Part shown: piece after piece, positions 11,740 through 27,289 of the stretch | How the letters are laid out: every line of letters begins with the position of its first letter | Position numbering within the stretch: position 1 is the stretch's first letter | NCBI RefSeq assembly: GCF_029961185.1 | Contig: NZ_JASBQQ010000012.1 | Coordinates: 1-64,000 of the forward strand | Reading direction: 5' to 3' | Source of the DNA: Albidovulum aestuarii | GTDB lineage: Bacteria; Pseudomonadota; Alphaproteobacteria; Rhodobacterales; Rhodobacteraceae | Length of the DNA stretch: 64,000 nucleotides | Position numbers and translations under genes: made by a program | Notes under the pieces: model-generated | Database searches by the model: none | Seen by the model: only the letters and a program-made list of their open reading frames with translations | What the model was told of the DNA's origin: nothing

Positions 11740-12453
11740 TCAGACGGTTTCCCCGTGCCCGAGATAGGCCCGGATGACCTCTTCGTTTTTGGTGACGTCC
11801 TGTGGCAGGCCCGAGGCCAAAAGCCTGCCCATGTTCATGACTGTCAGCGTCTCTGACGCCGACATGATGAATTTCAGATCGTGATCGATAAGAAGGATTG
11901 CGCAGGGATGGCGCTCGCGGAGCCAGAGAAGGTTGCGAAACAGTTCTTCCGTCTCCTCGGTGTTCATGCCAGCGGCCGGTTCGTCCAGAAGGAGCACGCG
12001 TGGCCGAAGGGCCAGTGCCCGGATGATTTCAAGCCGTCGCATATGGCCGTAGGACAGTGCGTCTGGCGCAAGACCCAAGACGGGCCCGAGCCCGAAACGG
12101 TCGATGGCATCGTCGATCAGCGAGGGGTCCCAGGCTTCGGCGGCGTGGCTTTCGGCCACCTCGATATTGCGTCGAACCGAGAGGTTTCGAAACAGTCGCA
12201 GGTTCTGAAACGTGCGCGCAATTCCCGACCGGGCCACAGTCTCGGGGGGCATATTCTGGATCTCGCGATCGCCGAGCAGGATCCGGCCCTGCGTGGGTCG
12301 GAGGAACCCCGAGATCAGGTTAATCATCGTGGTCTTACCGGCTCCGTTCGGCCCGATAAGCCCGTGAATCTCGGTGTCGGTGACCGTGAATGACACGTTG
12401 TCCACCGCCTGCACCCCGCCGAAGCTTTTTGAGACACCTTCGACGCGCAGCAT
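11740..12453 (-). CDS. Branched-chain-type ABC ATPase, LivG-like
   Basis: A 237-residue ATPase of the LivG/UrtD type. Walker A is GPNGAGKTT, the Q-loop is IARTFQNLRLF, the signature reads LSYGHMRRLEI (the LSYG form normal for LivG), Walker B is LLLDEPAAGMN and the switch histidine is in LIDHDLKF. It begins one base into the stop of the glutamine-synthetase-like gene, so the enzyme and importer are translated as one unit. Confidence 0.92.
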   Translation of the reverse strand: MLRVEGVSKSFGGVQAVDNVSFTVTDTEIHGLIGPNGAGKTTMINLISGFLRPTQGRILLGDREIQNMPPETVARSGIARTFQNLRLFRNLSVRRNIEVAESHAAEAWDPSLIDDAIDRFGLGPVLGLAPDALSYGHMRRLEIIRALALRPRVLLLDEPAAGMNTEETEELFRNLLWLRERHPCAILLIDHDLKFIMSASETLTVMNMGRLLASGLPQDVTKNEEVIRAYLGHGETV

Positions 12454-13769: not shown

Positions 13770-14638
13770 GCGCTTTCTCCGTTCCGGGCGCGGCCTCTCA
13801 GCACATCCCATGCCTCTATCCGTGTCCGCGTTGCTTCCCAGTCCTTCTCAGCCAGGGGTACGAGCAGCGCCTCTACAAGAACGAATGCAGGCACGTAGCT
13901 GTCCCAAAGTGTGCCGGAGTCGATTGGAACAGTGATCAATTCCGTCGCCCCTTTTGCGGCAGGCGTTATCCAGGGATCGGTTATGACAATGGTCTGTGCC
14001 TTGCGCGAACGGGCGGCAGCGGCAAACTCGGCCAGCTTCGCGTCGTAGCGGCGGAAGTCAAACAGAACGACCGGGTCCCGGGGCTTCATGCGCAACAGGT
14101 ATTCAGGCCAGGCCTCCGGGTCGGGCGGCACGTGAAATACGTCTGCCCGGATCTGCCGCAGATGGCGCAGGAAGAACTCGGCGATGGCGTCGCTCATGCG
14201 TCCACCCAGCATGAAAACGCGGCGCTTCGGGTCGCCCAGCATCGCGCAGATCCGGTCGAACTGGTCCGTTGGCATACGCTGGGCAAGATCGCGGCTCAGT
14301 GCGACCGCGCGCTCCACGTAATCGGTAAGCGGGGCAGGTACAGACGTGGTGCGCGTCTGGTGCAGTTCGATCGGAGAGGACTGCGAATCCCTCAGTTCAT
14401 TCAGCAGGCTTTGCTGAAAATCCTGAAAGCCCCGATAGCCCAGCTTGTTCACGAACCGCGAGATCGATGGGGCCGAGACGTTGGCACGTTCCGCTAAGTC
14501 CTGGATCGGCCCCAGAGCTGCGAATGGATAATCAGCAAGTATGACCGAACGAAGTTGCCGCTCGCTCGGGGTGAGGCTACCCGAGCTGGCGTCCATCGCT
14601 TCTCGCACGCGCAAGGTATCGGTGGTTGCAGCAGTCAT
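13766..14638 (-). CDS. RpiR/MurR-family transcriptional regulator
   Basis: A 290-residue regulator with an N-terminal HTH_6 domain (residues ~20-90; LAERANVSAPSISRFVNKLGYRGFQDFQ) and a C-terminal SIS domain (~125-265; VFMLGGRMSDAIAEFFLRHL). SIS domains of this family usually bind phosphosugars, but many Rhodobacterales members sit in amine and amide catabolic operons. It is the first gene of the eight-gene minus-strand operon and is divergent from the deformylase-like gene, so it probably controls both units and itself. Confidence 0.9.
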   Translation of the reverse strand: MTAATTDTLRVREAMDASSGSLTPSERQLRSVILADYPFAALGPIQDLAERANVSAPSISRFVNKLGYRGFQDFQQSLLNELRDSQSSPIELHQTRTTSVPAPLTDYVERAVALSRDLAQRMPTDQFDRICAMLGDPKRRVFMLGGRMSDAIAEFFLRHLRQIRADVFHVPPDPEAWPEYLLRMKPRDPVVLFDFRRYDAKLAEFAAAARSRKAQTIVITDPWITPAAKGATELITVPIDSGTLWDSYVPAFVLVEALLVPLAEKDWEATRTRIEAWDVLRGRARNGESA

Positions 14639-14758
14639 GTTCGCGAGCGTAAGGCTGATGAAAATTGCATGTCAACTCTTGCCAAACGGCAGCGATTGAT
14701 TTTCTTCTTTCAGAATGCCATTGGGGTGCATGTCGCCCGACAAACAGGCGGAGACAGT
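14639..14758. promoter_or_regulatory. Divergent promoter region of the amide module
   Basis: The 120 bases between the divergent rpiR-type gene and the deformylase-like gene must carry both promoters. A direct repeat GCATGTC occurs at 14667-14673 and 14728-14734. Half-sites of the TGAAA/TTTCA type known from RpiR operators occur (ATGAAAAT near 14658 and TTCTTTCA near 14705). No perfect palindrome is seen, so the operator is not assigned. The ribosome site for the plus-strand gene is GGAGA at 14750. Confidence 0.4.
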
Positions 14759-15535
14759 ATGCAGGAGATGGATCGGATAGCTGCGAGGCTTCTTGACCCC
14801 GGGGTGGATCCCGCTCCGGTAGAATATGTCGCCGCGACCGCACGACCGGACCTGCTGTTCGTCTGCGAACATGCCGGACGCCTGATTCCCCGTTCGCTGG
14901 GCGATCTCGGACTCGCTCCGGGTGAAATCGACAGGCATATTGCGTGGGATATCGGCGCCGAGGGCGTCGCGCGGCGACTGGCCGCCGCTCTTGGGGCCGG
15001 ATTGATCCTCCAGCGCTACAGTCGTCTAGTGATCGACTGCAATAGACCGCCGCTCGGCATGCAGTCGGTCCCGGAGACAAGCGACGGGGCAGAGGTTCCC
15101 GGCAACCAGAATCTCTCGAACGAGGACGGCGCCGCGCGGGTGGCCGAGATCTTCCGCCCCTTCGCGGAGGCCTGCGAGGCAGCCATCTCAGACCGTCGGA
15201 TACGGGGCGCATATTCGATCCACAGCTTTACGCCCTGCATGAACGGATTCGCGCGACCATGGCACATTGGCTTTTGTTTTAGGCAGGCGAACAGCGGAGG
15301 CGATCTGGCTAGGCGTTTCGGCGCGGCACATCCAAACTTGACCGTTGCTGAGAACCAACCCTACCAGATTGACGACGAGACCGACTGGTTCATTCCGCGC
15401 GTCGCAGAGCCCCACGGCATTGCCCACGCCCTGATCGAGATCCGCAACGACCAGATCGCCGACGAGGCGGGCCAAACCCTCTGGGCCGGCAGGCTGGCCG
15501 CCCTGTTCCAGACCCGTAAGGAGACAGACCTGTGA
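14759..15535 (+). CDS. N-formylglutamate amidohydrolase family protein
   Basis: A protein of 258 residues from the ATG at 14759, chosen because it follows GGAGA with five bases between; upstream frame belongs to the promoter region and the regulator. It belongs to the FGase family (HutG type, zinc amidohydrolase), which releases formate from N-formylglutamate. Family signs are LLFVCEHAGRLIP near residue 35, HIAWDIGAEGVARRLA, SRLVIDCNRPP and IHSFTPCMNG. It probably acts with the isochorismatase-like enzyme downstream, which it overlaps by four bases. Whether the substrate is N-formylglutamate or a related N-acyl amino acid is open. Confidence 0.88.
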   Translation: MQEMDRIAARLLDPGVDPAPVEYVAATARPDLLFVCEHAGRLIPRSLGDLGLAPGEIDRHIAWDIGAEGVARRLAAALGAGLILQRYSRLVIDCNRPPLGMQSVPETSDGAEVPGNQNLSNEDGAARVAEIFRPFAEACEAAISDRRIRGAYSIHSFTPCMNGFARPWHIGFCFRQANSGGDLARRFGAAHPNLTVAENQPYQIDDETDWFIPRVAEPHGIAHALIEIRNDQIADEAGQTLWAGRLAALFQTRKETDL

Positions 15536-16188
15536 CGACCATCAACCCCGCGACCCTGACCAGAGAAGTGCCGCTTGTTCCCGGGCAATCCGCCCTTCTG
15601 GTCGTCGACGTGCAGAACTTCAGCGCCAAGCGTCAGGGAGCAGAGTTTGGCCATCTCCCGGATGCCGAGTTCCGGGAAAAGTACGGCGCGTTTTTTGATC
15701 GGATCTGGTCCGAGACAATCCCCAACATCCGCCGCCTTCAGGACGCTTGCCGGGCGGCGGGCGTGGAGGTCATGTTCACAACGATCGAAAGCCTGACGCT
15801 GGACGGTCGTGACCGTTCATTGGACTACAAGATCACCGGCTTCAACGTGCCCAAGGGTTCATGGGACGGCAAGGTGGTGGACGAGATTGCACCCGTGGGA
15901 GACGAGATCGTATTACCGAAATCGTCGTCCTCGGTCTTCGTCTCGACCCATATCGACTACGTGCTGCGAAACCTCGGGGTGCGGCAACTGGTTATCACCG
16001 GGCTCGTAACCGACCAGTGCGTCGAAAGCGCGATCCGTGACGCCTGCGACCTGGGCTATCTGGTCACCCAGGTCACGGACGCCTGCATGACCTATACCGA
16101 GGCCCGGCAGACTGCGTCGATCAACGCCATCAAGGGCTATTGCCGTCAGCTGACGACTGATGCGCTTTGCGCTGAACTGATCGGTTAA
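15532..16188 (+). CDS. Isochorismatase-fold amidohydrolase
   Basis: A 218-residue hydrolase of the isochorismatase/cysteine hydrolase family (nicotinamidase, biuret hydrolase, RutB). The catalytic triad is visible as D26 (LLVVDVQN), K130 (VLPKSSSSVF) and C163 (GLVTDQCVESAIRDACDLGY), so it should be an active amidase. The GTG start overlaps the previous stop as GTGA. The family makes ammonia from small amides such as ureidoacrylate, biuret or nicotinamide. With the formamidase and deformylase-like protein in the same module, sequential amide cleavage is likely, but the substrate is unknown. Confidence 0.9.
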   Translation: MTTINPATLTREVPLVPGQSALLVVDVQNFSAKRQGAEFGHLPDAEFREKYGAFFDRIWSETIPNIRRLQDACRAAGVEVMFTTIESLTLDGRDRSLDYKITGFNVPKGSWDGKVVDEIAPVGDEIVLPKSSSSVFVSTHIDYVLRNLGVRQLVITGLVTDQCVESAIRDACDLGYLVTQVTDACMTYTEARQTASINAIKGYCRQLTTDALCAELIG

Positions 16189-16199
16189 GAGGCGTGTTT

Positions 16200-16427
16200 G
16201 CTCGGCATAAGGGGCAGTGCGAGCGCGTCGGAGAACGGGCGATGCCGCGGTTCTGCCGGGTGCGAAGTTTTCAGAAATTCGCGACCGTTCACGCCTCAGT
16301 CCACAATCATTTCAACAAGGAGCGCCGCCTCTGATCACGATAGAAATTCGGGCTGAACCGCGCGGCCACGTTCACCGACAGCGTCACTGTCCTTGCAGAG
16401 ATGGATTCGAATCCGTCTGACAAAACC
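16200..16427 (+). mobile_element. IS6-family relic between the two metabolic modules
   Basis: Translating from about 16224 gives GERAMPRFCRV and then FQKFATVHASVHNHFNKERRL before a stop, which matches the C-terminal part of the IS6 transposase at 5842-6546. The end GTCTGACAAAACC at 16427 is an inverted repeat of the IS6 left end. Just before it, ATAAGGGGCAG (near 16207) repeats the sequence after the intact transposase's stop, so the relic seems to be a mosaic of more than one copy. It lies 12 bases after the isochorismatase-like gene and about 60 before the aldehyde dehydrogenase stop. It has the same orientation as the other copies. Confidence 0.68.
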
Positions 16428-16484: not shown

Positions 16485-17993
16485 TCAGCCCAGCGGGCGG
16501 CCGCCGCCATCGAGAAACCAGTCGTCGGGATAGGGATACCACCAGTCCTGAACCGTCGGCTTGTGGTCGATGATGACCATCTTCGTGCGACGGAATGCGT
16601 CGAGCCCCTGCCGTCCGAGTTCGCGTCCGAGGCCCGAGGCCTTCCAGCCACCGAAAGGCAGCGCGTCGTTGTCGATGAGCGGGTTGTTTACCCAGACCAT
16701 CCCAGCCTCCAGCCGTTCGGCCGCTTCCATCGCCTCATTTAAGTTGGTGGTGAAAACAGAGGCGCCCAGTCCGAAGGGGGAGGCATTGGCGCGCGCGACT
16801 GCGTCGTTGAAGTCGGGGACGCGGACCACGGCGGCAACGGGGCCAAAACACTCGGATTGTAGAAGCGCCATATCTTCTGTGCAGCCGGTAAGTATGGTCG
16901 GTTCGTAGAACCAGCCCCGGTTCTGATCGGGCGGCACGCGTCCGCCGGTGACGACCTCCGCACCTTTCGCGATTGCGTCTTCAACAAGCGCCGCCACCCG
17001 GTCGCGCGCGGCCTCGGAAACGAGCGGTCCGATCTCGGATTTCATCAGGCCATTGCCGACCCGCAATGTGCGCGTCTTTTCAGCAAAAGCCTCGACGAAA
17101 GCGTCATGCACGGCATCGACCACGTAAAACCGCTCAGCCGAAGTGCAGACCTGACCTGAGAGGTGGAAAGCAGCCGTCACGGCACCTGCCGCCGCGATGT
17201 CTATCGGGGCGCTCTCGCAGACGATCATCGGATCGCTGCCGCCCGCCTCGATCACCGCAGGCTTCATCGCCGCTGCCGCCGCCATCCCCACGGCCTTGCC
17301 CGCCGCGACGGAGCCGGTAAAGGCGACTGCATGTGTGCGGGGCGAGGCGATGAGCTTTTCGGCCAGCGCCGCGCCGCCCGGCAGGCAGGCGACGAGGCCT
17401 ACGGGCAATCCCCGGAAGCACTTCATGAATTCCAGCGTCGAGAGTGTCGTCGCCGGCGCGGGTTTCACGATGCAGCCGTTCCCGGCGGCGAGTGAGGCGG
17501 CAACCGTCCAGCACATGAGCAGGACAGGGAAGTTGAACGGCATGATATGGACCGACACGCCGAGCGGTTCATATCGCGCATACTGGAACGATCCCGCTTG
17601 CGTTGTGCCAGCGACCTTTCCCGCCTCGTCCCGCGCCATTTCGGCATAGTAGCGGAAGATCGGCGCGCAGTTCGCAATCTCGCCGATGGCCTCCGGATAA
17701 GACTTACCCATCTCGCGGCTCATCAGGATCGCGGCGCGCTGGTGGTCGGTTGCTTCGATCACATTGGCCAGATCGTGCAGGACCTTTGCGCGCGACTTTG
17801 CATCCATCCGCTTCCACTTGGCCTGTGCCGCGGAAACCGCGTCGAGTACTGCTGCCGTCTCGCTCTCGTCGGCCTCGGTTATCTGGCCCACGACGCCCAG
17901 CGTTGCGGGGTCGATGACATCGCGTGGTGCGCCTGCCATCGGCCGAAAACCGGGGGTGACGAAGCAGGCGGGGTGGGCGGGATCGAAGTCCAT
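16485..17993 (-). CDS. NAD(P)-dependent aldehyde dehydrogenase
   Basis: A 502-residue aldehyde dehydrogenase, full length for the superfamily. The oxyanion asparagine N154 (PFNFP), the general base E249 (VIEAGGSDP, where most relatives read ELGGKNP) and the nucleophile C283 (SGQVCTSAERFYV) are all present. The cofactor-binding FTGSVAAGKAVG is near residue 225. It resembles the succinate-semialdehyde / aminoaldehyde group more than methylmalonate-semialdehyde enzymes. It is the last gene of a nine-gene operon with a polyamine-type importer, three cupins and a glycosyltransferase, so an aminoaldehyde or sugar-derived aldehyde is the likely substrate. That assignment is inference. Confidence 0.93.
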   Translation of the reverse strand: MDFDPAHPACFVTPGFRPMAGAPRDVIDPATLGVVGQITEADESETAAVLDAVSAAQAKWKRMDAKSRAKVLHDLANVIEATDHQRAAILMSREMGKSYPEAIGEIANCAPIFRYYAEMARDEAGKVAGTTQAGSFQYARYEPLGVSVHIMPFNFPVLLMCWTVAASLAAGNGCIVKPAPATTLSTLEFMKCFRGLPVGLVACLPGGAALAEKLIASPRTHAVAFTGSVAAGKAVGMAAAAAMKPAVIEAGGSDPMIVCESAPIDIAAAGAVTAAFHLSGQVCTSAERFYVVDAVHDAFVEAFAEKTRTLRVGNGLMKSEIGPLVSEAARDRVAALVEDAIAKGAEVVTGGRVPPDQNRGWFYEPTILTGCTEDMALLQSECFGPVAAVVRVPDFNDAVARANASPFGLGASVFTTNLNEAMEAAERLEAGMVWVNNPLIDNDALPFGGWKASGLGRELGRQGLDAFRRTKMVIIDHKPTVQDWWYPYPDDWFLDGGGRPLG

Positions 17994-18000
17994 TCTGGCC

Positions 18001-18348
18001 TCAGCGGATCATGTAGACCTTCTTGATGGTCTCGTGGACGGTACAGATGCCCTTCCAGTCCTGCGGGAAGAACGCGGCGGTATCGGGCGTGATCTCGATG
18101 ACTTCGCCGTTTTCATGCACATAGGTGCTGCGGCCTTCGAGGAAGTGGCAAAACTCGTCCTTCGTCACATGACAGAACCACTTGCCCGGCGTACAGATCC
18201 AGAGGCCGCATTCGCTCGACCCGTCGGGGTTGCGCGAGATGAGCCGGCCCGAGACCCGCGATTCCCCCTCGATCATCGTTGGGATGACGCCCCAGTCGAC
18301 GAGGTCGGTCTGGTCCAGCGGATTGCGCATCAAAGGTGTGGTGGTCAT
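18001..18348 (-). CDS. Cupin_3 (DUF861/EutQ-like) protein, copy 1
   Basis: A 115-residue single-domain cupin of the DUF861 group. It shares with the next two genes the pattern WG....IEG...SG, CGLW.CTPGKW, DEFC.F..GR..Y, G..IEITP and FP..W.G...VHET. The HxH metal motif of classical cupins is absent; the nearest residues are CHVTKDEFCHF. Family members include the metal-independent EutQ acetate-kinase-like proteins and ureidoglycine aminohydrolase-like enzymes, so a function cannot be assigned. It lies seven bases from the aldehyde dehydrogenase start and seven from copy 2. Confidence 0.85.
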   Translation of the reverse strand: MTTTPLMRNPLDQTDLVDWGVIPTMIEGESRVSGRLISRNPDGSSECGLWICTPGKWFCHVTKDEFCHFLEGRSTYVHENGEVIEITPDTAAFFPQDWKGICTVHETIKKVYMIR

Positions 18349-18355
18349 GGTGCTC

Positions 18356-18697
18356 CTAGCGGCTCATGAAAGCCTTGGTGGCGGTTTCGGTGACGATGCA
18401 GAGGCCGGTCCAGCCGGCGGGGAAGAAGACCATCGCGCCCGGGGCGATGGGGATCTCCTGCCCGTCGTCCGCGACATACATGCCGCGCCCCGCGACGAAA
18501 TAGCAGAACTCGTCTGCGGGGATGGTGACGCGCCGCTTGCCGGGTGTGCAGGACCAGAGGCCGCATTCGCTCGACCCGTCCGGGTTGGCATGCATCACCT
18601 TGCCCGAAAGGTGCGGCGCGCCTTCGATCACGTTCTTGCTCGGCCCCCAGTCGTCGAGCGTGACTTTGGCCGCGTCGGGCCAGTTGGGCGTTGTCAT
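18356..18697 (-). CDS. Cupin_3 (DUF861/EutQ-like) protein, copy 2
   Basis: A 113-residue cupin from the ATG at 18697, which overlaps the stop of copy 3 as ATGA; the upstream ATG at 18757 lies inside copy 3. It is clearly paralogous to copy 1 (NPDGSSECGLW.CTPGK is shared word for word over most positions). The central motif is TIPADEFCYFVAGRG, again without HxH. It probably forms a homo- or hetero-oligomer with its neighbours; the role is unknown. Confidence 0.85.
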   Translation of the reverse strand: MTTPNWPDAAKVTLDDWGPSKNVIEGAPHLSGKVMHANPDGSSECGLWSCTPGKRRVTIPADEFCYFVAGRGMYVADDGQEIPIAPGAMVFFPAGWTGLCIVTETATKAFMSR

Positions 18698-19059
18698 TCG
18701 TTGGCCTCGCGATCCGAAAGGTAATAAGTGTTGCGCATGGTTTCGTGCACCTCGCACTCCCCCGTCCAGCCGGAGGGGAACATCACGGCGGTGCCTGGCG
18801 TGACCTCGATCACCTCGCCCGCATCGGAGCGGTAGGTGGCGCGGCCCGCGACGAAATTGCAGAACTCGTCCCGCGGTATGGAGAGCCTCCAGCGCCCCGT
18901 GGTGCAGACCCAGATGCCGATTTCGGGGCGGTTCCCCGGCCCCTTGTGGACGAGCTTGCCAGACGAATGCGACGCACCCGCGATCGCGTCAGGCTGGGCA
19001 CCCCAGTCGACGAGGTCGACCCGAGTGGATGCGTCATGAAGGTGCGGCGCCGAACTCAC
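18694..19059 (-). CDS. Cupin_3 (DUF861/EutQ-like) protein, copy 3
   Basis: A 121-residue cupin when started at the GTG at 19059, which overlaps the glycosyltransferase stop as GTGA; the longer frame to 19314 is a shadow of that gene. It is the most diverged of the three copies: GPGNRPEIGIWVCTTGRW replaces the NPDGSSECGLW block. DEFCNFVAGRATY and GTAVMFPSGWTGECEVHET keep the family pattern. Three tandem single-domain paralogues in one operon suggest either different substrates or a hetero-oligomer. Confidence 0.83.
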   Translation of the reverse strand: MSSAPHLHDASTRVDLVDWGAQPDAIAGASHSSGKLVHKGPGNRPEIGIWVCTTGRWRLSIPRDEFCNFVAGRATYRSDAGEVIEVTPGTAVMFPSGWTGECEVHETMRNTYYLSDREANE

Positions 19060-20333
19060 TTCGCGAGCCCTTCGAGGAGCTTCGCAGCCTTGGCCGGACC
19101 GCTTTGTCCCTGCATGTGCTTCGACGTCGCGGCAAGCTTCGCAGCCATCGCCTTGTCGGTCAGGCAGGTCTCGATCTTCGCCAGAAGCTCCGCATCTGTC
19201 CAGTCGTAGCGCGGCATCTTGAAGCCGTGGCCGGTCTCCTGCACGCGTGTCGCGTTGTCGTGTCCATCCCAGACATAGGGCATGATGATCGCGGGTTTGC
19301 CGAAGTAGAGGCATTCGGTGAACGAGTTGTTGCCGCCATGGTGGATGACCGCGTCGACCTGTGGGATGACCGAAGGCTGCGGGAACCAGCCCGCCACATG
19401 CACGTTGCCGGGCAGATCGGAATATTCGGTGGCATAGTCGCCGATGTTCACGAGCGCCCGGTACGGCGACTTCGCCAGCGCCGCGATGATCCGCTTCAGA
19501 AGGTCGGTGTCGCCCGCACCGAGCGAGCCGAACGAAACGTAGAGAAGCGGGCCGTCGTTGTTCTTGGCAAATGTCGGAACCTCATAGGGTTCCTCTTTCC
19601 GGACGCAGCCTTCGAGATACTGGAACCGCTGCGGGTCGAGCGGTTCCTTGCGATGGAACTTCACCGGCTCGGGGTAGAGGAGGAGGTTCATGTAGGGCGA
19701 GGCTTCGAAGAACTGCCCGATCGGATAGGCATCCTCACCGCATTCGGCGAGGAATGCGTTGAAGTCGTCGTGGATCGGCTTGATCACGCTGTTGAATTTG
19801 TTTCTGAACGCCTCGTGGCAGGCCGTGTCGTTCTCCCCGCAACCCGATAGGTGCGGTGGGATCCCTTCCTCCTCAATCTCGTTTTCCGAGCAGGAGATGA
19901 CGCGCACCCAGGGCACGCCGTATTGCTTGATCGCCGGGAAGAGGATCACGTTGTCAACGGCGATGACGTCCGGCTTCACCTTGGCCAGAACGCCCGGCAG
20001 GTCTTTCTGCGCCCATTTCGCGCTGTCGACGATCGCTTCCCAGCAATCCTTCACGTAGTTGTCGATCTGATCGATCGGTGCCTTGCGGAAGTTCGGGATG
20101 TGGCCGTTGATGAAATCCTCCCAGAACTTCGCCATCTGCTCGGGCGGCATCGGTTCGGACAAGGCCACGGGATGCGCCTCGAACCCGTAGCCCTGATAGA
20201 CCTCGACGAAACCGGGATCGGACAGGAAAACCGCCTTGTGGCCAAGCGCCTCGACCGCTTGCGCGATGCCGACGGAGTTCAGTGCCGGGCCAAAGGCGGC
20301 TTCGGGGAAGAAGGCGAAGGTTTTCTGGGCCAT
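19056..20333 (-). CDS. UGT-like (GT1, GT-B fold) glycosyltransferase, operon copy
   Basis: A 425-residue soluble glycosyltransferase of the GT1 / UDP-glucuronosyltransferase-like group (MGT family). The N-terminal acceptor domain begins FAFFPEAAFGPALNSVGIAQA and the C-terminal donor-binding domain carries the UGT pattern IHHGGNNSFTECLYFGKPAIIMPYVWDGHDN near residues 330-360. The linker LLYVSFGSLGAGDTDLL is typical. There is no signal peptide. The gene is 15 bases from the ABC ATPase upstream and overlaps cupin copy 3, so it belongs to the uptake-catabolic operon. A cytoplasmic glycosyltransferase in such a setting is unusual. It is a paralogue of the protein at 25218-26540. Confidence 0.88.
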   Translation of the reverse strand: MAQKTFAFFPEAAFGPALNSVGIAQAVEALGHKAVFLSDPGFVEVYQGYGFEAHPVALSEPMPPEQMAKFWEDFINGHIPNFRKAPIDQIDNYVKDCWEAIVDSAKWAQKDLPGVLAKVKPDVIAVDNVILFPAIKQYGVPWVRVISCSENEIEEEGIPPHLSGCGENDTACHEAFRNKFNSVIKPIHDDFNAFLAECGEDAYPIGQFFEASPYMNLLLYPEPVKFHRKEPLDPQRFQYLEGCVRKEEPYEVPTFAKNNDGPLLYVSFGSLGAGDTDLLKRIIAALAKSPYRALVNIGDYATEYSDLPGNVHVAGWFPQPSVIPQVDAVIHHGGNNSFTECLYFGKPAIIMPYVWDGHDNATRVQETGHGFKMPRYDWTDAELLAKIETCLTDKAMAAKLAATSKHMQGQSGPAKAAKLLEGLAK

Positions 20334-20348
20334 GATTGTCTCCCTGTT

Positions 20349-21332
20349 CTAATCGTTGAATTGGCGTGTATCGGCCTCGTTCCAGCCGAGCGTGACGGTA
20401 TCGCCCTCGGCCACGGGACGCCGGTCGGCAGCGTTGGCGGTCAGGCGGACGAGAAGCGGCTTTGGCGACAGCGGGGTTGCGACGTGAAGCTGGAGGTCGA
20501 GCCCGTGATAGGCGCGTGCCGTCACGCGGCCCTCGACCGTGCGGTCGGCCCGGTCGGGGAAGAGGTGGATGCGCTCGGGCCGGATGGCCAGCGTGCGGCC
20601 ACCTTCTTCGATGAAGTTCATCACGCCGATGAAGTCGGCGGCGAAGCGGTTCGCGGGATGTTCGTAGACCTCGTGCGGGGTGCCGCATTGCAACAGCCGC
20701 CCGTCCTTCAGGATCGCCACGCGGTCGGCCATGACCAGCGCCTCTTCCTGGTCGTGGGTCACAACGATGAAGGTGATGCCGACCTCGTGCTGGAGCCGCT
20801 TGAGTTCCAGTTGCATCGCCGCCCGCAGCTTCTTGTCGAGCGCGCCCAAGGGTTCGTCGAGCAGCAGAAGCCGTGGCCGTTTCACCAGGGCCCGGGCCAG
20901 CGCCACGCGCTGCCGCTGGCCGCCCGACAACTGGTCAGGCTTGCGTTTCGCCATCGGCGAAAGCTCGGTGATTTCCATGATCTCGCCCACGCGCGCGCCG
21001 ATTTCCGACCGGGGCAGGTGCTCCATTTCCAGCCCGTAGGCGATGTTCCCCTCGACCGTCATATGCGGGAAGAGCGCATAGCTCTGGAACATCAGGTTCA
21101 CCGGCCGCCGGTTCGGCGGCATCCGGGAGATGTCGGCGCCGTCGAGGCGGATCGCGCCCGCATCCGGCGTCTCGAACCCCGCGAGCATTCTCAGCAGTGT
21201 GGTCTTGCCCGAGCCCGATGCGCCGAGAAGCGCGAAGAACTCGTTTTCCACGATCTCAAGCGAGAGCCTGTCGACCGCCGTCACGGCGCCGAAGCGTCTG
21301 GTCACGCCATCAATGGACAGAAGCGCGGTCAC
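20349..21332 (-). CDS. Polyamine-type ABC transporter ATPase (PotA-like)
   Basis: A 327-residue ATPase of the MOI/POPT (polyamine, opine, phosphonate) family. Walker A GASGSGKTT, Q-loop FQSYALFPHMTVEGNIAYGLEM, signature LSGGQRQR, Walker B LLLDEPLGALDKKLR and switch histidine VTHDQEEA are all canonical. The C-terminal TOBE_2 domain is short (RPERIHLFP). It is translationally coupled to the permease upstream (ATGA) and should energise the two PotB/PotC-like permeases. Confidence 0.93.
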   Translation of the reverse strand: MTALLSIDGVTRRFGAVTAVDRLSLEIVENEFFALLGASGSGKTTLLRMLAGFETPDAGAIRLDGADISRMPPNRRPVNLMFQSYALFPHMTVEGNIAYGLEMEHLPRSEIGARVGEIMEITELSPMAKRKPDQLSGGQRQRVALARALVKRPRLLLLDEPLGALDKKLRAAMQLELKRLQHEVGITFIVVTHDQEEALVMADRVAILKDGRLLQCGTPHEVYEHPANRFAADFIGVMNFIEEGGRTLAIRPERIHLFPDRADRTVEGRVTARAYHGLDLQLHVATPLSPKPLLVRLTANAADRRPVAEGDTVTLGWNEADTRQFND

Positions 21333-22123
21333 GGCGCGATCACCCCCTTGTTAAGCCGTTGCGACAGGGTCAATGCGGTGACCGAAACGATCATCACCAA
21401 TGTTGCCAGCGCATTGATCTCGGGCGTCACGCCGAAGCGGATCATCGCAAAGATCTGCATCGGTAGGGTGGTGGAGGCGCGCCCTGCCCCTGCGGTGAAG
21501 AAGGCGATGATGAATTCGTCGACCGATAGCGTGAAGGCCAGAAGCGCGCCCGCGATCACGGCGGGCAGGATCAGCGGCAGCGTCACCCGGCGGAAGGTGG
21601 TGAGGGCAGAGGCGCCAAGGTCGGCAGAGGCCTCGGTCACCGACCAGTCGAAACTTTTCAACCGCGCCCGGACGACGGCGGAGACGAAGGCAAGGTTGAA
21701 GACGACATGGGAAAGGATGATCGTGTGCAGCCCCATCGGCACTTTCAGAAGCGAGAAGAAGCTCAGAAGCGCGATGGCGAGTACGATGTCGGGAATGATC
21801 ATCGGCGCGAAGACCAGCGCCTCCAAGGCGCGGCCCTTTCGCCGCCGGGTTTCGATCCCAAGCGCGAGCAGCGTGCCGAGAACCACCGCGATGGCTGTCG
21901 AGATCATCGCGACTATCAGCGTGTTGAGAGCGGCCGAGAGGATGTCGCGGTTCGCCATCAATGCGCCGTACCACTTGACCGAAAACCCGGTCCAGGCGGT
22001 CGGCAACCCGCCCTCGTTGAAGCTGAGCGCGACGAGGGTCGCAATGGGGATGTAAAGGAAAGCAAAGACCGCGAAGAGCACAACGGTCAGACTGCGGCGA
22101 GTAGCGGGCGAACGGTCAGCCAT
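21329..22123 (-). CDS. Polyamine-type ABC permease (PotC-like)
   Basis: A 264-residue inner-membrane permease with six hydrophobic segments. The coupling loop reads EASADLGASALTTFRRVTLPLILP (residues ~170-193), a good EAA motif. SVDEFIIAFFTAG is typical of PotC. The start overlaps the end of the PotB-like gene by eight bases. Confidence 0.92.
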   Translation of the reverse strand: MADRSPATRRSLTVVLFAVFAFLYIPIATLVALSFNEGGLPTAWTGFSVKWYGALMANRDILSAALNTLIVAMISTAIAVVLGTLLALGIETRRRKGRALEALVFAPMIIPDIVLAIALLSFFSLLKVPMGLHTIILSHVVFNLAFVSAVVRARLKSFDWSVTEASADLGASALTTFRRVTLPLILPAVIAGALLAFTLSVDEFIIAFFTAGAGRASTTLPMQIFAMIRFGVTPEINALATLVMIVSVTALTLSQRLNKGVIAP

Positions 22124-23030
22124 CGGTGCCCTCCCGCCTTTCGCCCGCGCCCTTCTCGGCGGCGATCGCCTGAATCGTCAGAAGCCCCATCATGATCGCG
22201 ATCAGCACCATCGAGATCGCCGCCCCGAAGGGCCAGTCGTTCGCGGTCAGGAACTGCGCGTAGATCAAGTTGCCCATCATCTGGAACCGCCCGCCGCCGA
22301 GAAGGGCGGGGGTGATGAAATTGCCGATGGACAGGACGAAGACGAAGACAGCGCCCGCTGCGATCCCCGGAACGGTCATCGGCAGGATCACGCGGCGGAA
22401 CGTGGTAAAGGCCGAGGCGCCGAGATCGCGCGACGCCTCGGCAAGTTCCGGGTTCAGCCGTGCAAGCGGCGCGTAGCAGGCGAGGATCACGAAAGGCAGG
22501 TAGTTGTAGACGAGCCCGGTGATCACCGCCCCTTCGGTATAGAGCATCGAGGGCGGCTCGCCCTCGTAACCCAGCATCCGCAAGCCTTGGGTAATCAGTC
22601 CCTCGCGGTTCAGCAGAACGATCCAGGCATAGGTGCGGATCAGGTAGTTCGACCAGAAGGGTAGGACGGCCAGGAAGAGGAGAAGCGGCTGTCGGTGACG
22701 CGGTGCGGCGGCGATGGCATAGGCGGCGGCATAGCCGATGACGACCGCGATCAGGGTCGCAAGACCCGCGATCCGCGCCGATGTCAGGAAGATCCCGGCA
22801 TAGAGCGGATCGACGATCAGCGCGAAGTTTTCGAGTGTGAAGGTATACTCGATCCCGCCGTAAAGTCCGCGCCGGAAAAAGCCGAGCGCGAGGATCAGCC
22901 CGCAGGGAACAACCATCAATGCCGTCAGCCACATAAGGGCCGGCGCCATCAGGAGGGTCGAGCGGGTATTCGGGCTCTGCACGCGACGGGTCTTTTCCGG
23001 GAAACGGTGCGGGGCCAAATGGCCCCGCAT
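22116..23030 (-). CDS. Polyamine-type ABC permease (PotB-like)
   Basis: A permease of 304 residues from the ATG at 23030, six bases after the binding-protein stop; a GTG at 22982 would give 288 residues and start closer to the first membrane segment. The coupling loop EASRDLGASAFTTFRRVILPMTVPG and LSIGNFITPALLGG are PotB hallmarks. The ATG lies at the foot of a strong hairpin (23008-23029), which may either limit translation of the permeases or mark the true 5' boundary; I cannot decide between the two starts. Confidence 0.88.
   Translation of the reverse strand: MRGHLAPHRFPEKTRRVQSPNTRSTLLMAPALMWLTALMVVPCGLILALGFFRRGLYGGIEYTFTLENFALIVDPLYAGIFLTSARIAGLATLIAVVIGYAAAYAIAAAPRHRQPLLLFLAVLPFWSNYLIRTYAWIVLLNREGLITQGLRMLGYEGEPPSMLYTEGAVITGLVYNYLPFVILACYAPLARLNPELAEASRDLGASAFTTFRRVILPMTVPGIAAGAVFVFVLSIGNFITPALLGGGRFQMMGNLIYAQFLTANDWPFGAAISMVLIAIMMGLLTIQAIAAEKGAGERREGTDG
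23008..23029 (-). promoter_or_regulatory. GC-rich hairpin at the binding protein-permease junction
   Basis: A perfect nine-base-pair stem (TGCGGGGCC / GGCCCCGCA, loop AAAT) sits just after the binding-protein stop and at the start of the permease gene. There is no U run, so it is not a full terminator. Hairpins at this place are common in ABC operons and protect the binding-protein mRNA or reduce downstream expression. Confidence 0.6.
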
Positions 23031-23036
23031 CTCAGA

Positions 23037-24086
23037 TCACTGCGCGGCCTTGATCGCGCTGACGGCCTTGGCATAGGCGCGGCTCGCATCGCCCACGTCT
23101 CGAAGCTGTTCCAGCGCGACGAGATCGGCCGGTGCCATGCCCATATTGGGATAGGTCGCGGCCATGTCCGCTGAAAGGCTCTCCATCGCCGGCTTGTTAG
23201 GCACCTTGTAAAGGATGTTCTCGGCCGCCCAGGCGTGGTTCTTGGCGTCGAGGATGTAGTTGATGAACTTGAACGCGCCGTCCTTGTTCTCGGAAGCCTT
23301 CATCACCACCATCGTGTCGACCCAGAGGTCCGAACCTTCTGACGGGATCATGAACTTGATGTCCGGGTTTTCGGCGATGCCGTAGTTGCACCAGCCATCC
23401 CACGCATGAACCAGGGTTGCCTCGCCCGAGACGAGCTTGGAGTAGAAGGTCGTGTCGTCGAAGGCGAGCATCGTCTTCTTCGCCTCGATCAGTTCGGCCT
23501 CGACTTCGTCAAGCTTTGCCTGGTCGGTCTCGTTGACCGAGTAACCCTTGGCAAGGAACCCCGCCGCCAAAAGCCAGCGGTCGGTGCCGAGCAGCGTGAC
23601 CTTGCCCGCCTGTGCCTCGGCGGGATGCAGCAGATCGTGCCACGATGCCGGCTCGGGCGAGACGAGATCGGAGCGGTAGCACAGCCCTGTCGTGCCCCAG
23701 GCGTAGGGCACCGAGAAGGTGTTGCCCGGATCGTGCGGCAGGGCCGCCGCCTCAGCGTAAAGGTTGGCGAGGTTCGGGACCTTGGCGGCGTCGATCGGTT
23801 CCAGCAGGTCGAGATTGTTCAGCACCTCGGCAAAGGGCGACGAGACGAAGACCACGTCATAGCCCTGTCCGCCAGAGGCGATGAGCTTGCCCATGATCTC
23901 TTCATTCGTCGCATGGACGACCATCTCGGCCGCCTCGCCGCTCTCGGTGGCGAAATTCGCCACGGCGTCGGGGGCCATGTAGCCATCCCAGTTGGAGATG
24001 ACGAGTTCTGCGGCAGCAGGGCCGGCGGCGACAAGGCCGGCCGCAAGCGTTGCAGCGATGCGCAACGGGGCAGGGGACTGTGGCAT
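23037..24086 (-). CDS. Polyamine-type periplasmic binding protein (PotD-like)
   Basis: A 349-residue binding protein from the ATG at 24086, chosen for the upstream AGAGGAA ribosome site and the start of a Sec signal peptide (MPQSPAPLRIAATLAAGLVAAGPAAA, cut before ELVISNWDGYM). The mature start VISNWDGYMAPD and the pattern GYDVVFVSSPF and VPYAWGTTGLCYR are typical of spermidine/putrescine-type binding proteins. It is the first gene of the operon. The real ligand may be a larger amine or an amino-sugar, given the glycosyltransferases; this is inference. Confidence 0.9.
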   Translation of the reverse strand: MPQSPAPLRIAATLAAGLVAAGPAAAELVISNWDGYMAPDAVANFATESGEAAEMVVHATNEEIMGKLIASGGQGYDVVFVSSPFAEVLNNLDLLEPIDAAKVPNLANLYAEAAALPHDPGNTFSVPYAWGTTGLCYRSDLVSPEPASWHDLLHPAEAQAGKVTLLGTDRWLLAAGFLAKGYSVNETDQAKLDEVEAELIEAKKTMLAFDDTTFYSKLVSGEATLVHAWDGWCNYGIAENPDIKFMIPSEGSDLWVDTMVVMKASENKDGAFKFINYILDAKNHAWAAENILYKVPNKPAMESLSADMAATYPNMGMAPADLVALEQLRDVGDASRAYAKAVSAIKAAQ

Positions 24087-24188
24087 ATCGGTTCCTCTTC
24101 TGTTGGTCGTCCGTTGGGATGTGCCGGTTTTATTTTGGTATTTCGGCCCATTGATGGGCAGCGTTGTGGCCCCCACCTTGACCAAACA

Positions 24189-24210
24189 GTATTATTACGC
24201 GAAAAAATAC
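24189..24210. promoter_or_regulatory. Candidate GntR operator palindrome
   Basis: The 22-base sequence from 24189 to 24210 (GTATTATTACGCG plus AAAAAATAC) matches its own reverse complement at 18 of 22 positions. It lies midway between the divergent PotD-like gene (start 24086) and the GntR gene (start 24265), in the most AT-rich part of that interval. It is the natural place for a GntR dimer to control both units. Confidence 0.55.
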
Positions 24211-24264
24211 GTCAATAGTCATTTGCGCCGAGGGCGTGCGCCCCCGGCGTCAGAACCCAGAACC

Positions 24265-25221
24265 ATGACACAACGAGACAAGAAATCGGCAACACGCCGG
24301 CCACGCCAGAACCACCTGGACCTCGCGCGGCGCATTCTCGACCTCGCCCGCGACCGTGGGTTCGGTCCGGGCGCGCATCTGCCGGAACAGTTGATTGCGA
24401 CGCAGTGCAACGTCTCGCGCACGCCGGTCCGGGCGGCGCTGAAACTCTTGGCCGATCAGGGGCTTGCGGTGCACGAGGCCGATGCCGGCTATCGCCTATC
24501 GGGCGATTTCACCCCGAGCTCCGCCTTCTCCGAACCGCTGCCCGATGCCGAGGAAGGTGCGCTCGCCCAGCGGATTATCCGGGACCGCTCGGCGCGGCGG
24601 CTTGACGAGACGATTACGGTGGGCGAGGTGATGCGCCGCTACGGGGCCGAGCGCCGGACGGTGCTGAAGGCACTTGGCACATTGGCCGAGGACGGGCTGT
24701 TGACGCGCGCGCCGGGCCAGTCCTGGGTTTTTGCCAGCCTGCCCGACAGTCCCGAATCGCAGGCCGACAGTTTCGAGTATCGCCTGCTTCTGGAGCCCGC
24801 CGCGTTGACCGCTCCGGGCTTCCGGTTGGACGAGGACCGGTCCGCCGCGCTGCGCCGGGCGATGGTGGCGTTCCTCGCCGAACCCGACGACCGGCTCGAC
24901 CCGCGCGCGTTCCAGCGGCTCGACACGGATTTCCACCTGCTGATCGCGCGCGGCGCCGCGAACCGCTTCGTTGCCGAGGCGCTTCTTGCGCATCACCGTC
25001 TGCGCGAACTGCCCGGCGCCACCGTGCGTGGAAACGTCGTCCGGCTTCGGCAGGCCATGCAGGAACATCTCGGCATTCTCGACCATCTCGAAAGTGGTCA
25101 GCTTGCCGTCGCCGCCGACTTGCTGCGGGTCCATCTGCGGCTGTCGCGCAGCCAGCGCCCGCAGGCCGCCAACCGCGGCGCGCCGCCTCTCTTCGGCATG
25201 AACGTGCCACCCGGAAGATGA
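24265..25221 (+). CDS. GntR-family regulator with two winged-helix domains and an FCD domain
   Basis: A 318-residue regulator from the ATG at 24265; the open frame further upstream crosses the promoter and the divergent signal peptide. Residues ~17-75 form a GntR winged helix (LPEQLIATQCNVSRTPVRAALKLLADQGLAV). Residues ~97-152 form a second one (ETITVGEVMRRYGAERRTVLKALGTLAEDGLL). The rest is an FCD ligand domain (LDTDFHLLIARGAANRF, QEHLGILDHLESGQ). Most FCD regulators have one winged helix and ~230 residues, so this form is longer than usual. It overlaps the second glycosyltransferase gene by ATGA. Confidence 0.88.
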   Translation: MTQRDKKSATRRPRQNHLDLARRILDLARDRGFGPGAHLPEQLIATQCNVSRTPVRAALKLLADQGLAVHEADAGYRLSGDFTPSSAFSEPLPDAEEGALAQRIIRDRSARRLDETITVGEVMRRYGAERRTVLKALGTLAEDGLLTRAPGQSWVFASLPDSPESQADSFEYRLLLEPAALTAPGFRLDEDRSAALRRAMVAFLAEPDDRLDPRAFQRLDTDFHLLIARGAANRFVAEALLAHHRLRELPGATVRGNVVRLRQAMQEHLGILDHLESGQLAVAADLLRVHLRLSRSQRPQAANRGAPPLFGMNVPPGR

Positions 25222-26540
25222 ACGGCACCCCCACCATCGCCTTCTTTCCTGAGGCAAGTTTCGGCGCCGCTCTCAACTGCGTCGGCATCGCCCGCGCGCT
25301 GAAGGAACGCGGTGCGCGGCCGGTCTTCATCTGTCATGCGGGGTTTTCCGGCGTCTTCGCGGAATACGGGTTTCAGGAATATCACCTGCCACTGGCCGGT
25401 GCTCCGGTGCCGGAAACCTACTGGCAGGATTTCATCAGCCGCCACCAGCCCCATTTCAATCTCGATCCGGCCGACCAGATCGAAACCTATGTCGCCCCGA
25501 CATGGGAGGCGATCGTGGAGACGGCCAAACAGGCCGAGGCGCCGCTCTTCGCCCTGCTGCAAAGACTGAGGCCCGATGCAGTCGTTCTCGACAATGTCGT
25601 GATGTTTCCCGCGATCCTGCGCGCGGGCTGCCCGTGGGTGAGGGTCATCTCCTGCGCCGAAACCGAGTTGCCGGACCCGAATGTACCGCCCTACCTGTCG
25701 GGTCTTCCGGGCGATGACCGCACCCAATGGCAGGCTTTCGCCGACCGCTACAACGCCGCAGTCGGACCGGTCCATGCCCGGTTCAACAGGTTCCGGTCCC
25801 GACACGGGCTGCCACCGCTGGATGCGGGCCAGTTCCTCGAACCCTCGCCCTGGCACAATCTGCTGCTGGCGCCCTCGATCCTGCGTCATGACCGCGAGGT
25901 CGGGCTGGACCCGGCCCGTTTCACGTTCCTCGAAGGCTGCGTCCGGCAGGAAGCACCGTACAACGTTCCGGAATTCGCGACCGGCGAGGGGCCGCTGGTC
26001 TATGTCTCTTTCGGCAGTCTCGGTGCGCTGGATACCGCTCTGATCAAGCGGCTGATCGCCGTCTTTGCCGAGTTTCCCGCCCGTTTCCTGATCAATGTCG
26101 GCGCGTTCCGGGAGGCCTATCGCGCTGTGCCCGACAATGTGATCCTCGATCAGTGGTTCCCGCAGCCGAGCGTCGTGGCCAAGGCGGATCTCTTCATCCA
26201 CCACGGCGGTAATAACAGCTTCTGCGAGGCTCTGTATTGCGGTGTTCCGTCGCTGATCATGCCCTATTGCTGGGACGGGCACGACAACGCCCGCCGCGCG
26301 GTCGAAACCGGAACAGGCAGGTGGCTCCATCGCGCCCATTGGACGCCGGAGGAACTGGCGGTGGCGATGCGATCGGCACTTGAAGATGCAAAGATGCGCG
26401 ACAGGCTGGCGGCCAATGCCGGCCGCATGGTCCCCGCAAACGGCGTCGATCTGGCGGCAGAGCGGATAATTGCGGTTGCACGCCCGTCAGAGAAACGCGC
26501 CTTGAGGCAAGGATGGGCGCCGCATAGCCTTAGCGAGTGA
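25218..26540 (+). CDS. UGT-like (GT1, GT-B fold) glycosyltransferase, regulator-linked copy
   Basis: A 440-residue paralogue of the glycosyltransferase at 19056-20333. The two align along their full length: IAFFPEASFGAALNCVGIA, VVLDNVVMFPAILRAGCPWVRVISCAE, LVYVSFGSLGALDTALIKR and FIHHGGNNSFCEALYCGVPSLIM all have counterparts. The UGT donor-site pattern and the DGHDN motif are intact. Its start overlaps the GntR stop, so regulator and enzyme are co-expressed. It ends 20 bases before an IS6 relic, and its last ~25 residues (from about RPSEKRALRQG) have no counterpart in the other copy. Confidence 0.88.
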   Translation: MNGTPTIAFFPEASFGAALNCVGIARALKERGARPVFICHAGFSGVFAEYGFQEYHLPLAGAPVPETYWQDFISRHQPHFNLDPADQIETYVAPTWEAIVETAKQAEAPLFALLQRLRPDAVVLDNVVMFPAILRAGCPWVRVISCAETELPDPNVPPYLSGLPGDDRTQWQAFADRYNAAVGPVHARFNRFRSRHGLPPLDAGQFLEPSPWHNLLLAPSILRHDREVGLDPARFTFLEGCVRQEAPYNVPEFATGEGPLVYVSFGSLGALDTALIKRLIAVFAEFPARFLINVGAFREAYRAVPDNVILDQWFPQPSVVAKADLFIHHGGNNSFCEALYCGVPSLIMPYCWDGHDNARRAVETGTGRWLHRAHWTPEELAVAMRSALEDAKMRDRLAANAGRMVPANGVDLAAERIIAVARPSEKRALRQGWAPHSLSE

Positions 26541-26560: not shown

Positions 26561-27289
26561 GGTACTATCAGAGAAAGTTGGCCTGAGACGGTGCGAGGTG
26601 GTGGCTAGCCTTTGGACGTGACCAAACGCTCCCACTGCAAATACTTCACGTTTTCGCCTGAGATCATTCGCCCAGCGGTGATGCTCTAAGTAAGATTTCC
26701 GCTTTCCGTTAGTAAGGTTGAGGACCTGCTGCACGAGCTTGGCATCGACATCAGGCACGAAAATGCGTGCTTCTGGTGGTATCGGTTCGACCCGATGCTT
26801 GCTGCGGAGTTCCGGAAGCGGTGTGTTGCGGGCATGAAATAGAGCCGCTGGAAATGGTACCTCGATGAGATGCTCATGAAGATAAACGGTGAACGGCACT
26901 ACTTCTGGCGGGCCGTGGATCATGAAGGCGAGGTGTTAGAAAGCTTCGTCACGAAGACCCGAAACAAGGAAGTCACTCTGAAATTCCCAAGAAAACCAAT
27001 GTGCAAGCATGGCAGGCCGGATGTGATCGTGACTGACCGGCCCCGGCTTTAGGGCGCGGCCCTTAAAGAGATCAGCGCCGTCGAAAGACAGGAAGCCGGC
27101 CGTTGTCTCAACAATCGCGCAGAGAACTCCCAACTCGTGTTCCGACGACGTTAAAGCGCGATGCATCGTTTTCGGCGCATGCGACTTTGCAGAAGTTCGC
27201 CGCCGTGCACGCATCCGTCTGCAACCGCTTCAACCAAGAACGTAACCTCGCCCAAACCAATTGCGTTGCACATGCGCTCTGAAGGGGTG
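26561..27289 (+). mobile_element. Decayed IS6-family element, right boundary of the island
   Basis: A nearly full-length but decayed IS6 copy. The left end GGTACTATCAGAGAAAGTTGGCCTGAG matches the intact element's left end over about 30 bases with few changes. The transposase remnant starts near 26618 (KYFTFSPEIIRPAVML) and runs to about 27250. In-frame stops occur after AVML, after AGMK, after RPRL and before AMHRF, with a frame change near the C-terminus. The right end is a weak inverted repeat (CTCTGAAGGGGTGC, near 27289). It is in the same orientation as the other copies. Confidence 0.8.

Follow-up and report, generated by a model that had tools for sequence, protein, structure and literature searches.

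Why should a polyamine-type importer be encoded in one operon with a glycosyltransferase, three cupins and an aldehyde dehydrogenase (ALDH), opposite a regulator and a second glycosyltransferase? This question is raised by positions 16485-26540 of a 64,000-nucleotide stretch of Albidovulum aestuarii DNA (hereafter the window; positions 1 to 64,000, forward strand, of contig NZ_JASBQQ010000012.1, assembly GCF_029961185.1). The best reading of this locus, which we put forward tentatively and at somewhat less than an even chance, is that an amine-like compound is imported, receives a hexosamine-type sugar on its nitrogen, is oxidised and passed on to the ALDH, and that the sugar is released and recycled. 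The initial annotation had described a tightly packed run of nine minus-strand genes, with overlaps or gaps of under 20 bases, and a divergent GntR regulator with a second glycosyltransferase. The gene calls of the window agree with it throughout, all 11 genes being found with the same coordinates, order, strands and spacing. In the direction of transcription, the minus-strand run encodes a PotD-like solute-binding protein (23037-24086, ATG start; a longer open reading frame (ORF), reaching 24185, begins at an upstream TTG), a PotB-like permease (22116-23030) and a PotC-like permease (21329-22123), both assigned by profile matches, and a PotA-like ABC ATPase (20349-21332). These are followed by a GT1 glycosyltransferase of the GT-B fold, here called GT-A (19056-20333), three Cupin_3 proteins, namely cupin1 (18694-19059), cupin2 (18356-18697) and cupin3 (Cupin_3/DUF861, 18001-18348), and the ALDH (16485-17993, PF00171). 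Gaps of 6, 15, 7 and 7 bases separate the genes at four junctions, and the remaining four overlap by 4-8 bases, the GTG start of cupin1 overlapping the end of GT-A. Divergent from this operon, on the plus strand, lie a GntR-family regulator with an FCD domain (24265-25221) and GT-B, a paralogue of GT-A (25218-26540), whose ORFs share a 4-base overlap.

The first step is to establish whether these genes belong together. A scan of named bacterial and archaeal genomes gave at least 584 stretches encoding relatives of the glycosyltransferase. The best 80 of the 584, joined by plasmid records and further genomes, yielded 102 GT-A loci; 18 of these have short flanks and were left out of the counts, and 84 have sufficient flank. 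Cupin3, the most conserved of the cupins, follows GT-A in 84/84 loci. The ALDH lies within 6 kb downstream of GT-A in 83/84 loci and 8.3 kb off in the remaining one, and PotD, PotB, PotC and PotA are found upstream in 82/84. GntR and GT-B are both present in the same 77 loci, cupin1 is present in 79 and cupin2, an optional paralogue, in 24. Three loci duplicate a genome already in the set (L036/L051, L037/L057, L038/L073); these are counted within the totals of 84, 92 and 181 used here and taken out of those of 81 and 87; their removal leaves cupin3 in 81/81, the ALDH in 80/81, PotD in 79/81, GT-B with GntR in 74/81 and cupin1 in 76/81. From these counts, the gene set is one conserved unit, both GT1 paralogues included, and not a product of chance. 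The seven loci that lack GT-B (L033, L145, L039, L042, L045, L114, L143) also lack GntR, and five of them have no cupin1 at the threshold used.

The sample leans towards close relatives, the best 80 of 584 having been used, and part of the co-occurrence is therefore explained by shared descent; distant loci provide the stronger test. Three genomes from a different class of the same phylum, with GT-A 66% identical, have the full layout. One genome of the window's own class (GT-A 59%) keeps the importer, the glycosyltransferase, two cupins and the ALDH. Two haloarchaea (58-59%) carry the glycosyltransferase, a cupin and the ALDH in the same order, and polyamine-type ABC genes elsewhere within 12 kb. 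As GT-A, cupin3 and the ALDH persist in the distant loci, haloarchaea included, they are the minimal core. The main check proposed at the outset, co-occurrence in other genomes, was thus passed, since the layout recurs across Rhodobacterales, Rhizobiales and another proteobacterial class, and its core in two haloarchaea.

Within the window's own family the glycosyltransferase is patchy. It occurs in 12/295 genomes, the source genome counted, and no copy was found in a second genome of the same genus. A collection of 72,556 plasmid records was also searched, with 143 matches to the glycosyltransferase, of which 83 lower-ranked ones fall outside those listed and every one of at least 60% identity falls inside. 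Among the matches listed, the 11 records with a glycosyltransferase at 58% or more are exactly the 11 with cupin3 at 57% or more. In five annotated plasmid records with the cluster, the glycosyltransferases carry no more than the label glycosyltransferase, and the transporter genes next to them are labelled 'spermidine/putrescine' or plain ABC transporter. In the window, tblastn with its own DDE_Tnp_IS240 transposase (234-aa ORF at 5842-6546) detects remnants of an IS6-type transposase immediately flanking the cluster on either side. One is just past the ALDH stop (16233-16397, plus strand, 53% over 55 aa) and the other just past GT-B (26618-27261, plus strand, 66% over 189 aa, continuing in another frame). 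Together with the occurrence of related clusters on plasmids, these remnants fit the patchy distribution of the glycosyltransferase, and suggest that the cluster may have moved as a unit.

What the glycosyltransferases might do was approached through their residues. GT-A and GT-B are 48% identical to each other, and matches above the Pfam cut-offs (PF06722, PF00201, PF04101) place them in the GT-B fold with a C-terminal nucleotide-sugar site. No named GT1 subfamily (MGT TIGR01426 or others) was reached, at 113-114 bits against a cut-off of 260. Both paralogues were aligned with three ordinary GT1 proteins, all three with His at the N-terminal column that we take to hold the catalytic base. The His is found in neither paralogue: the column holds Pro in 94/94 GT-A proteins with a residue there (Pro16 in the window; 2/96 GT-A rows are gapped at position 16), and Ala in 83 and Ser in 2 of 85 GT-B proteins (Ala16 in the window). 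Asp127, presumably at the place of the catalytic partner Asp, is invariant in 95/95 GT-A and 85/85 GT-B, as are H332 and E340 of the UDP site in both paralogues. The donor-site Gln is replaced by Gly in 96/96 GT-A and 85/85 GT-B (181/181), GT-A having a WDGHDN donor motif instead of DQ. As far as residues tell, the nucleotide site is kept and the base and one sugar contact are altered in every member examined.

An acceptor nitrogen, less dependent on a base, would fit such His-less enzymes. In human UGT1A4 and UGT2B10 the His base is replaced by Pro or Leu, and these enzymes preferentially N-glucuronidate amines. They offer a parallel in that His-less UGTs prefer amines, but one that is chemical only, since the human proteins are membrane enzymes that use UDP-glucuronate. 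The missing His could also be read otherwise: GT-B may make a glycosylated signal for GntR, with GT-A acting in the pathway, or both glycosyltransferases may be non-catalytic ligand binders. In a tree of 29 glycosyltransferases GT-B forms one clade (100/100) on long branches, and the joint grouping of GT-A is weak (53/79); the longer branches of GT-B would suit such a departure, as would its overlap with gntR and the presence or absence of the two together (77 both, 7 neither). However, GntR and GT-B may co-travel merely as an operon, and invariant UDP-site residues and Asp127 in both paralogues are not expected of dead enzymes. We therefore consider a signalling or non-catalytic role quite unlikely.

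The closest solved structures point to a further possibility. An AlphaFold model of GT-A (mean pLDDT 92.3) has its best fold matches in the spider-mite enzymes UGT203A2 (TM 0.89-0.90) and UGT202A2 (0.80-0.85 by query length), all remaining glycosyltransferases among the 50 listed matches reaching a TM of at most 0.73 by query length. The same enzymes (PDB 7lvy/7mco and 6pnt/8sfy) give the best sequence match among solved structures (7e-52). The mite UGTs have His at the position where the bacterial cluster family has Pro, Ala or Ser, and they are detoxification enzymes, whereas the cluster glycosyltransferases sit in an import operon. Lone Streptomyces relatives (L034, L035) are 36-37% identical to GT-A. 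UGT203A2 is 35% identical to the one Streptomyces relative that was compared, against 29-30% to the cluster glycosyltransferases (29% to GT-A), and this relative also carries Pro at the His column, where the mite enzyme carries His.

GT1 enzymes are classic detoxifiers. The initial annotation had raised trapping or detoxification of the imported compound. On this view, GT-A and GT-B would attach sugar to a toxic amine or aldehyde, and the remaining genes would catabolise whatever they can. This history of GT1 enzymes and the mite structures lend it some weight. On the other hand, GT-A is tied to an importer in 82/84 loci, and detoxification leaves unexplained both the sugar activation encoded in some operons and the altered catalytic residues. 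On balance we judge it unlikely.

These sugar-activating genes supply the next part of the answer. By tblastn across the 84 loci, an AmgK-like kinase is encoded between cupin3 and the ALDH in 14, drawn from Rhodobacterales, Rhizobiales and three genomes of another class. Its position relative to cupin3 was read from coordinates at 11 of these loci: the two genes share a 4-base overlap in 7, and are separated by 4 bases in 3 and by 28 bases in 1. Five of the 14 add a stand-alone GlmU-N-like protein (the uridylyltransferase half), and one an aldose 1-epimerase. Genomes with the operon kinase have an additional copy elsewhere in 12/12 examined, and genomes without it have a copy in 5/5 (E 1e-20 or better). 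A tree of 30 kinases places the 12 operon copies in one clade (100/99), apart from 17/18 others. The eighteenth non-operon kinase (L166, labelled housekeeping) falls in the operon clade; it comes from a genome with the operon, in which it is an additional copy. In a further genome of the window's family (L187, 8322-9326) an operon-type AmgK-like kinase without the glycosyltransferase stands beside GlmU- and GlmS-like genes, the GlmS-like name being our reading of the sequence.

In both haloarchaeal loci (2/2), the core is instead accompanied by a ROK kinase, whose best hit is glucokinase, and by a mutase that matches Arch_GlmM (phosphoglucosamine mutase) best. The AmgK/GlmU-N-like and ROK/GlmM-like sets are unrelated and would do the same job, turning a free hexose or hexosamine into a sugar-1-phosphate for UDP-sugar synthesis. 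Sugar-activating neighbours in two unrelated forms are what would be expected if the glycosyltransferase uses a UDP-sugar and the sugar comes off again. With the kept UDP site, they support the earlier proposal that an imported compound is glycosylated. The known system nearest to this is AmgK/MurU cell-wall sugar salvage. A relative's operon kinase matches the AmgK family and a GlmU-N-like protein would make the UDP-sugar (one of each tested). In contrast to that system, the operon kinases form a clade separate from the housekeeping copies, the cluster uridylyltransferase matches GlmU best, and the window operon has neither kinase nor uridylyltransferase.

What, then, is imported? The transporter is a full PotABCD-type set in one operon (binding protein, two permeases, ATPase), and PotA scores above the potA subfamily cut-off (TIGR01187, 364.8 bits against 355.6). 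The PotD-like protein aligns with E. coli PotD along its length in a pairwise HMMER alignment, and we assume the spermidine contacts of PotD, with the roles of E36, D168, E171 and D257, to be as known from its structure. Of the contacts, W34, Y37, S83, W229, W255, D257 and Y293 are kept. Replaced are E36 (Gly), Y85 (Pro), D168 (Thr), E171 (Trp), Q327 (Leu) and S211 (Asp), and T35 is mostly Asp. Across 92 orthologues every one of these states is constant, apart from those at positions 35 (Asp in 83), 255 (Trp in 91) and 327 (Leu in 90, Met in 2). The acidic ligand set E36, D168, E171 and D257 thus reads G, T, W, D in 92/92, D257 alone being kept, where positions 168 and 171 are placed by that one pairwise alignment.

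The label of polyamine-type importer given in the initial annotation therefore stands for the family, which the cluster importer shares with E. coli PotABCD, but not for the ligand site, which differs from that of PotD at E36, Y85, D168, E171 and Q327, with three of the four spermidine-binding acids replaced invariantly. Polyamine import as the default was rejected, since most of the ligand acids are replaced in all 92 orthologues, and neither spermidine nor putrescine is likely to be the cargo. Candidates are compact or aromatic amines, quaternary amines and aminosugars.

The last of these leads to the strongest rival, in which the imported compound itself carries the sugar. Here the importer would take in an aminosugar or a glycosylated amine, the glycosyltransferases would work in reverse or trim the sugar, and the AmgK-like, ROK/GlmM-like and GlmU-N-like proteins would use the sugar set free. 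A pocket that keeps five aromatics, with Trp at 171 and without most of the polyamine acids, would suit a sugar, and sugar-activating enzymes do lie in or beside the core at some loci. Nevertheless, a kinase for free sugar would be needless if the glycosyltransferase removed the sugar to UDP. No glycoside hydrolase was present among the identified genes, the flanks not having been searched for one, and the glutamine synthetase (GS)-like and FAD-oxidase genes described below point to an amine. We regard import of a ready-made sugar compound as rather unlikely.

The cupins and the ALDH would act on the conjugate. All three cupins exceed the cut-off of the Cupin_3 (EutQ-like) Pfam profile (59.4, 56.5 and 47.4 bits against 23.5). 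Cupin3 is highly conserved (CTPGKWxCHVTxDEFCHFLEG ... TVHET), and possible metal ligands lie in CHVTxDEFCH and VHET. Compared by sequence with the His/His/Glu/His set of metal cupins, it shows one motif-1 His, the Glu and one motif-2 His, with fewer in cupin1 and cupin2. The closest folds to its AlphaFold model (pLDDT 96.5) are uncharacterised DUF861 proteins (3bcw, 3es4), then EutQ (TM 0.62-0.66 by query length) and PpnP nucleoside phosphorylases (0.60/0.71), although identity to these last two is just 10-20%. PpnP cleaves N-glycosidic bonds, and release of the sugar by a cupin is therefore possible, as judged from fold similarity. The named classes nearest to the ALDH are betaine aldehyde dehydrogenase (BADH), aminobutyraldehyde dehydrogenase and succinate-semialdehyde dehydrogenase (SSADH), and enzymes of BADH and SSADH type are among its top matches of solved structure. 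The matches to the named classes all fall far below their cut-offs, and we therefore assigned none of the named substrates. An importer and an ALDH of types usual in catabolism also speak against the idea that the glycosyltransferases use the import to make a cell-surface or secondary metabolite, with the ALDH and cupins being biosynthetic. Weak NCBIfam matches of the glycosyltransferases do include antibiotic-pathway enzymes. Yet no synthase, acyltransferase or exporter is found among the 11 genes, and such a role appears very unlikely.

Moreover, genes near the cluster point to amine chemistry. GS-like genes lie beyond GT-B, on the divergent side, in 21/84 loci (20 labelled Mesorhizobium) and downstream of the cluster in 5/84, the window among them. 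FAD-dependent oxidases of the DAO family are found within 9 kb in 13/84 loci, and a flavin amine oxidase is divergent from the operon in one. Also recurrent, mostly in Rhizobiales, are an additional ALDH of BADH-like type (18 of the 84 loci) and a protein resembling saccharopine dehydrogenase (19 of the 84). The GS-like genes of two relatives were tested, and glutamine synthetase models scored best with the gamma-glutamylputrescine synthetase model next; for the window's own GS-like gene the gamma-glutamylputrescine synthetase model is best. This gene lies 2.7 kb past the operon end, behind opposite-strand genes.

Positions 12453-16188 of the window hold a separate amine- or amide-type cluster (a GS-like ligase, an RpiR regulator, an N-formylglutamate amidohydrolase-like protein and an isochorismatase-like hydrolase), adjoining a branched-chain-type ABC importer and an acetamidase/formamidase at 6898-7836. 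We considered these genes as part of the unit and rejected them, because they do not recur as neighbours (no other cluster was found to have RpiR or isochorismatase next to it, and the amidohydrolase-like gene was seen in one genome only) and because an IS remnant lies between. The GS-like genes, unlike those for RpiR and isochorismatase, do recur beside other clusters, in different positions.

The regulator may tie the two operons together. A 22-bp palindrome, GTATTATTACGCGAAAAAATAC, lies in the divergent promoter region at 24189-24210; with as many as 3 mismatches allowed, the genome contains it just once. The exact pattern, derived from the same intergenic regions in which it was counted, is present in the PotD-GntR gap of 60/87 loci and absent from 27, with 3 copies elsewhere in the 1.75 Mb that these loci comprise. 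It is likely to be the GntR operator. L038, L085 and L101 each have one more match to the pattern, about 400 bases past the intergenic region in the direction of gntR, which might be a second operator within that gene.

Taken together, our favoured reading would run as follows. The importer would bring in a small amine-like compound, and GT-A would transfer a hexosamine-type sugar, with UDP-GlcNAc as first choice of donor, to a nucleophilic nitrogen able to react without a His base. Oxidation of the conjugate would follow, carried out in some clusters by an FAD oxidase encoded close by, and the ALDH would convert the resulting aldehyde to an acid. The cupins, cupin3 above all, may aid release of the sugar, which would be phosphorylated and returned to UDP-sugar, and GntR probably controls both operons through the palindrome between them. 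Given the gene set, residues and neighbours observed, we infer the acceptor, the donor, the order of steps and the role of the cupins. Since the sugar seems to be recycled, the conjugate is more likely to be transient than to be stored or exported.

Polyamines are also degraded by a gamma-glutamylation route, the Puu pathway, in which glutamate is the temporary tag on the amine. The proposed pathway would work in the same manner, sharing import, temporary tagging of the amine, oxidation and an aldehyde dehydrogenase, with sugar in place of glutamate. The two differ in that the window operon has no PuuA, PuuB or PuuD and, of the PuuA, PuuB, PuuC and PuuD set, offers the ALDH alone. In its most specific form, glycosylation-dependent catabolism, a His-less GT1 enzyme would N-glycosylate an imported amine from a hexosamine donor. 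The amine would be oxidised while tagged, a cupin would cleave the N-glycosidic bond, and the sugar would be re-activated, by AmgK-like and GlmU-N-like proteins in some lineages and ROK and GlmM-like proteins in archaea. With all these details specified, we hold it to be doubtful.

Several observations weigh against the favoured pathway. The identity of the sugar rests on neighbours and one motif, and the operon kinase is lacking from 70/84 loci, the window included. Across genomes of the family the link between kinase and glycosyltransferase is weak (2/12 genomes with the glycosyltransferase against 5/283 others, P = 0.03), and the kinases of the five without it lie in mixed contexts. The sole operon kinase scored against NCBIfam reaches 207 bits where the AmgK model requires 500, an equivalog cut-off passed by no copy in the 17 genomes searched, housekeeping copies included; the haloarchaeal ROK kinases and mutases are also below their equivalog cut-offs. 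The window operon has no oxidase, aminotransferase or glycosidase, so that two steps have no assigned enzyme there. The PotD-like pocket, which argues against a polyamine, could suit an aminosugar, and the two GS-like genes tested in relatives resemble glutamine synthetase more than the gamma-glutamylputrescine enzyme.

Lastly, we sought earlier accounts of this gene set. Every protein family in the cluster is already known. For the combination no description was found in searches of the open-access literature, one of them viewed in part, most subscription papers being outside their reach; to that extent the first impression that no known pathway has this combination is borne out. Passages of PMC7901475 mention no glycosyltransferase, and those of PMC8010143 and PMC4652392 regard the mite UGTs as bacterial acquisitions. 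As those enzymes are the closest solved relatives, the native role of the bacterial family bears on their origin. The same cluster is found in many soil and marine bacteria and in some salt-loving archaea. If the favoured reading is true, labels such as 'spermidine/putrescine' and plain glycosyltransferase mislead, and GT1 chemistry without a His base exists in bacteria. These organisms would then possess an unfamiliar route for degrading amine-like compounds, in which a sugar can act as a temporary catabolic tag, like glutamate in the Puu pathway.

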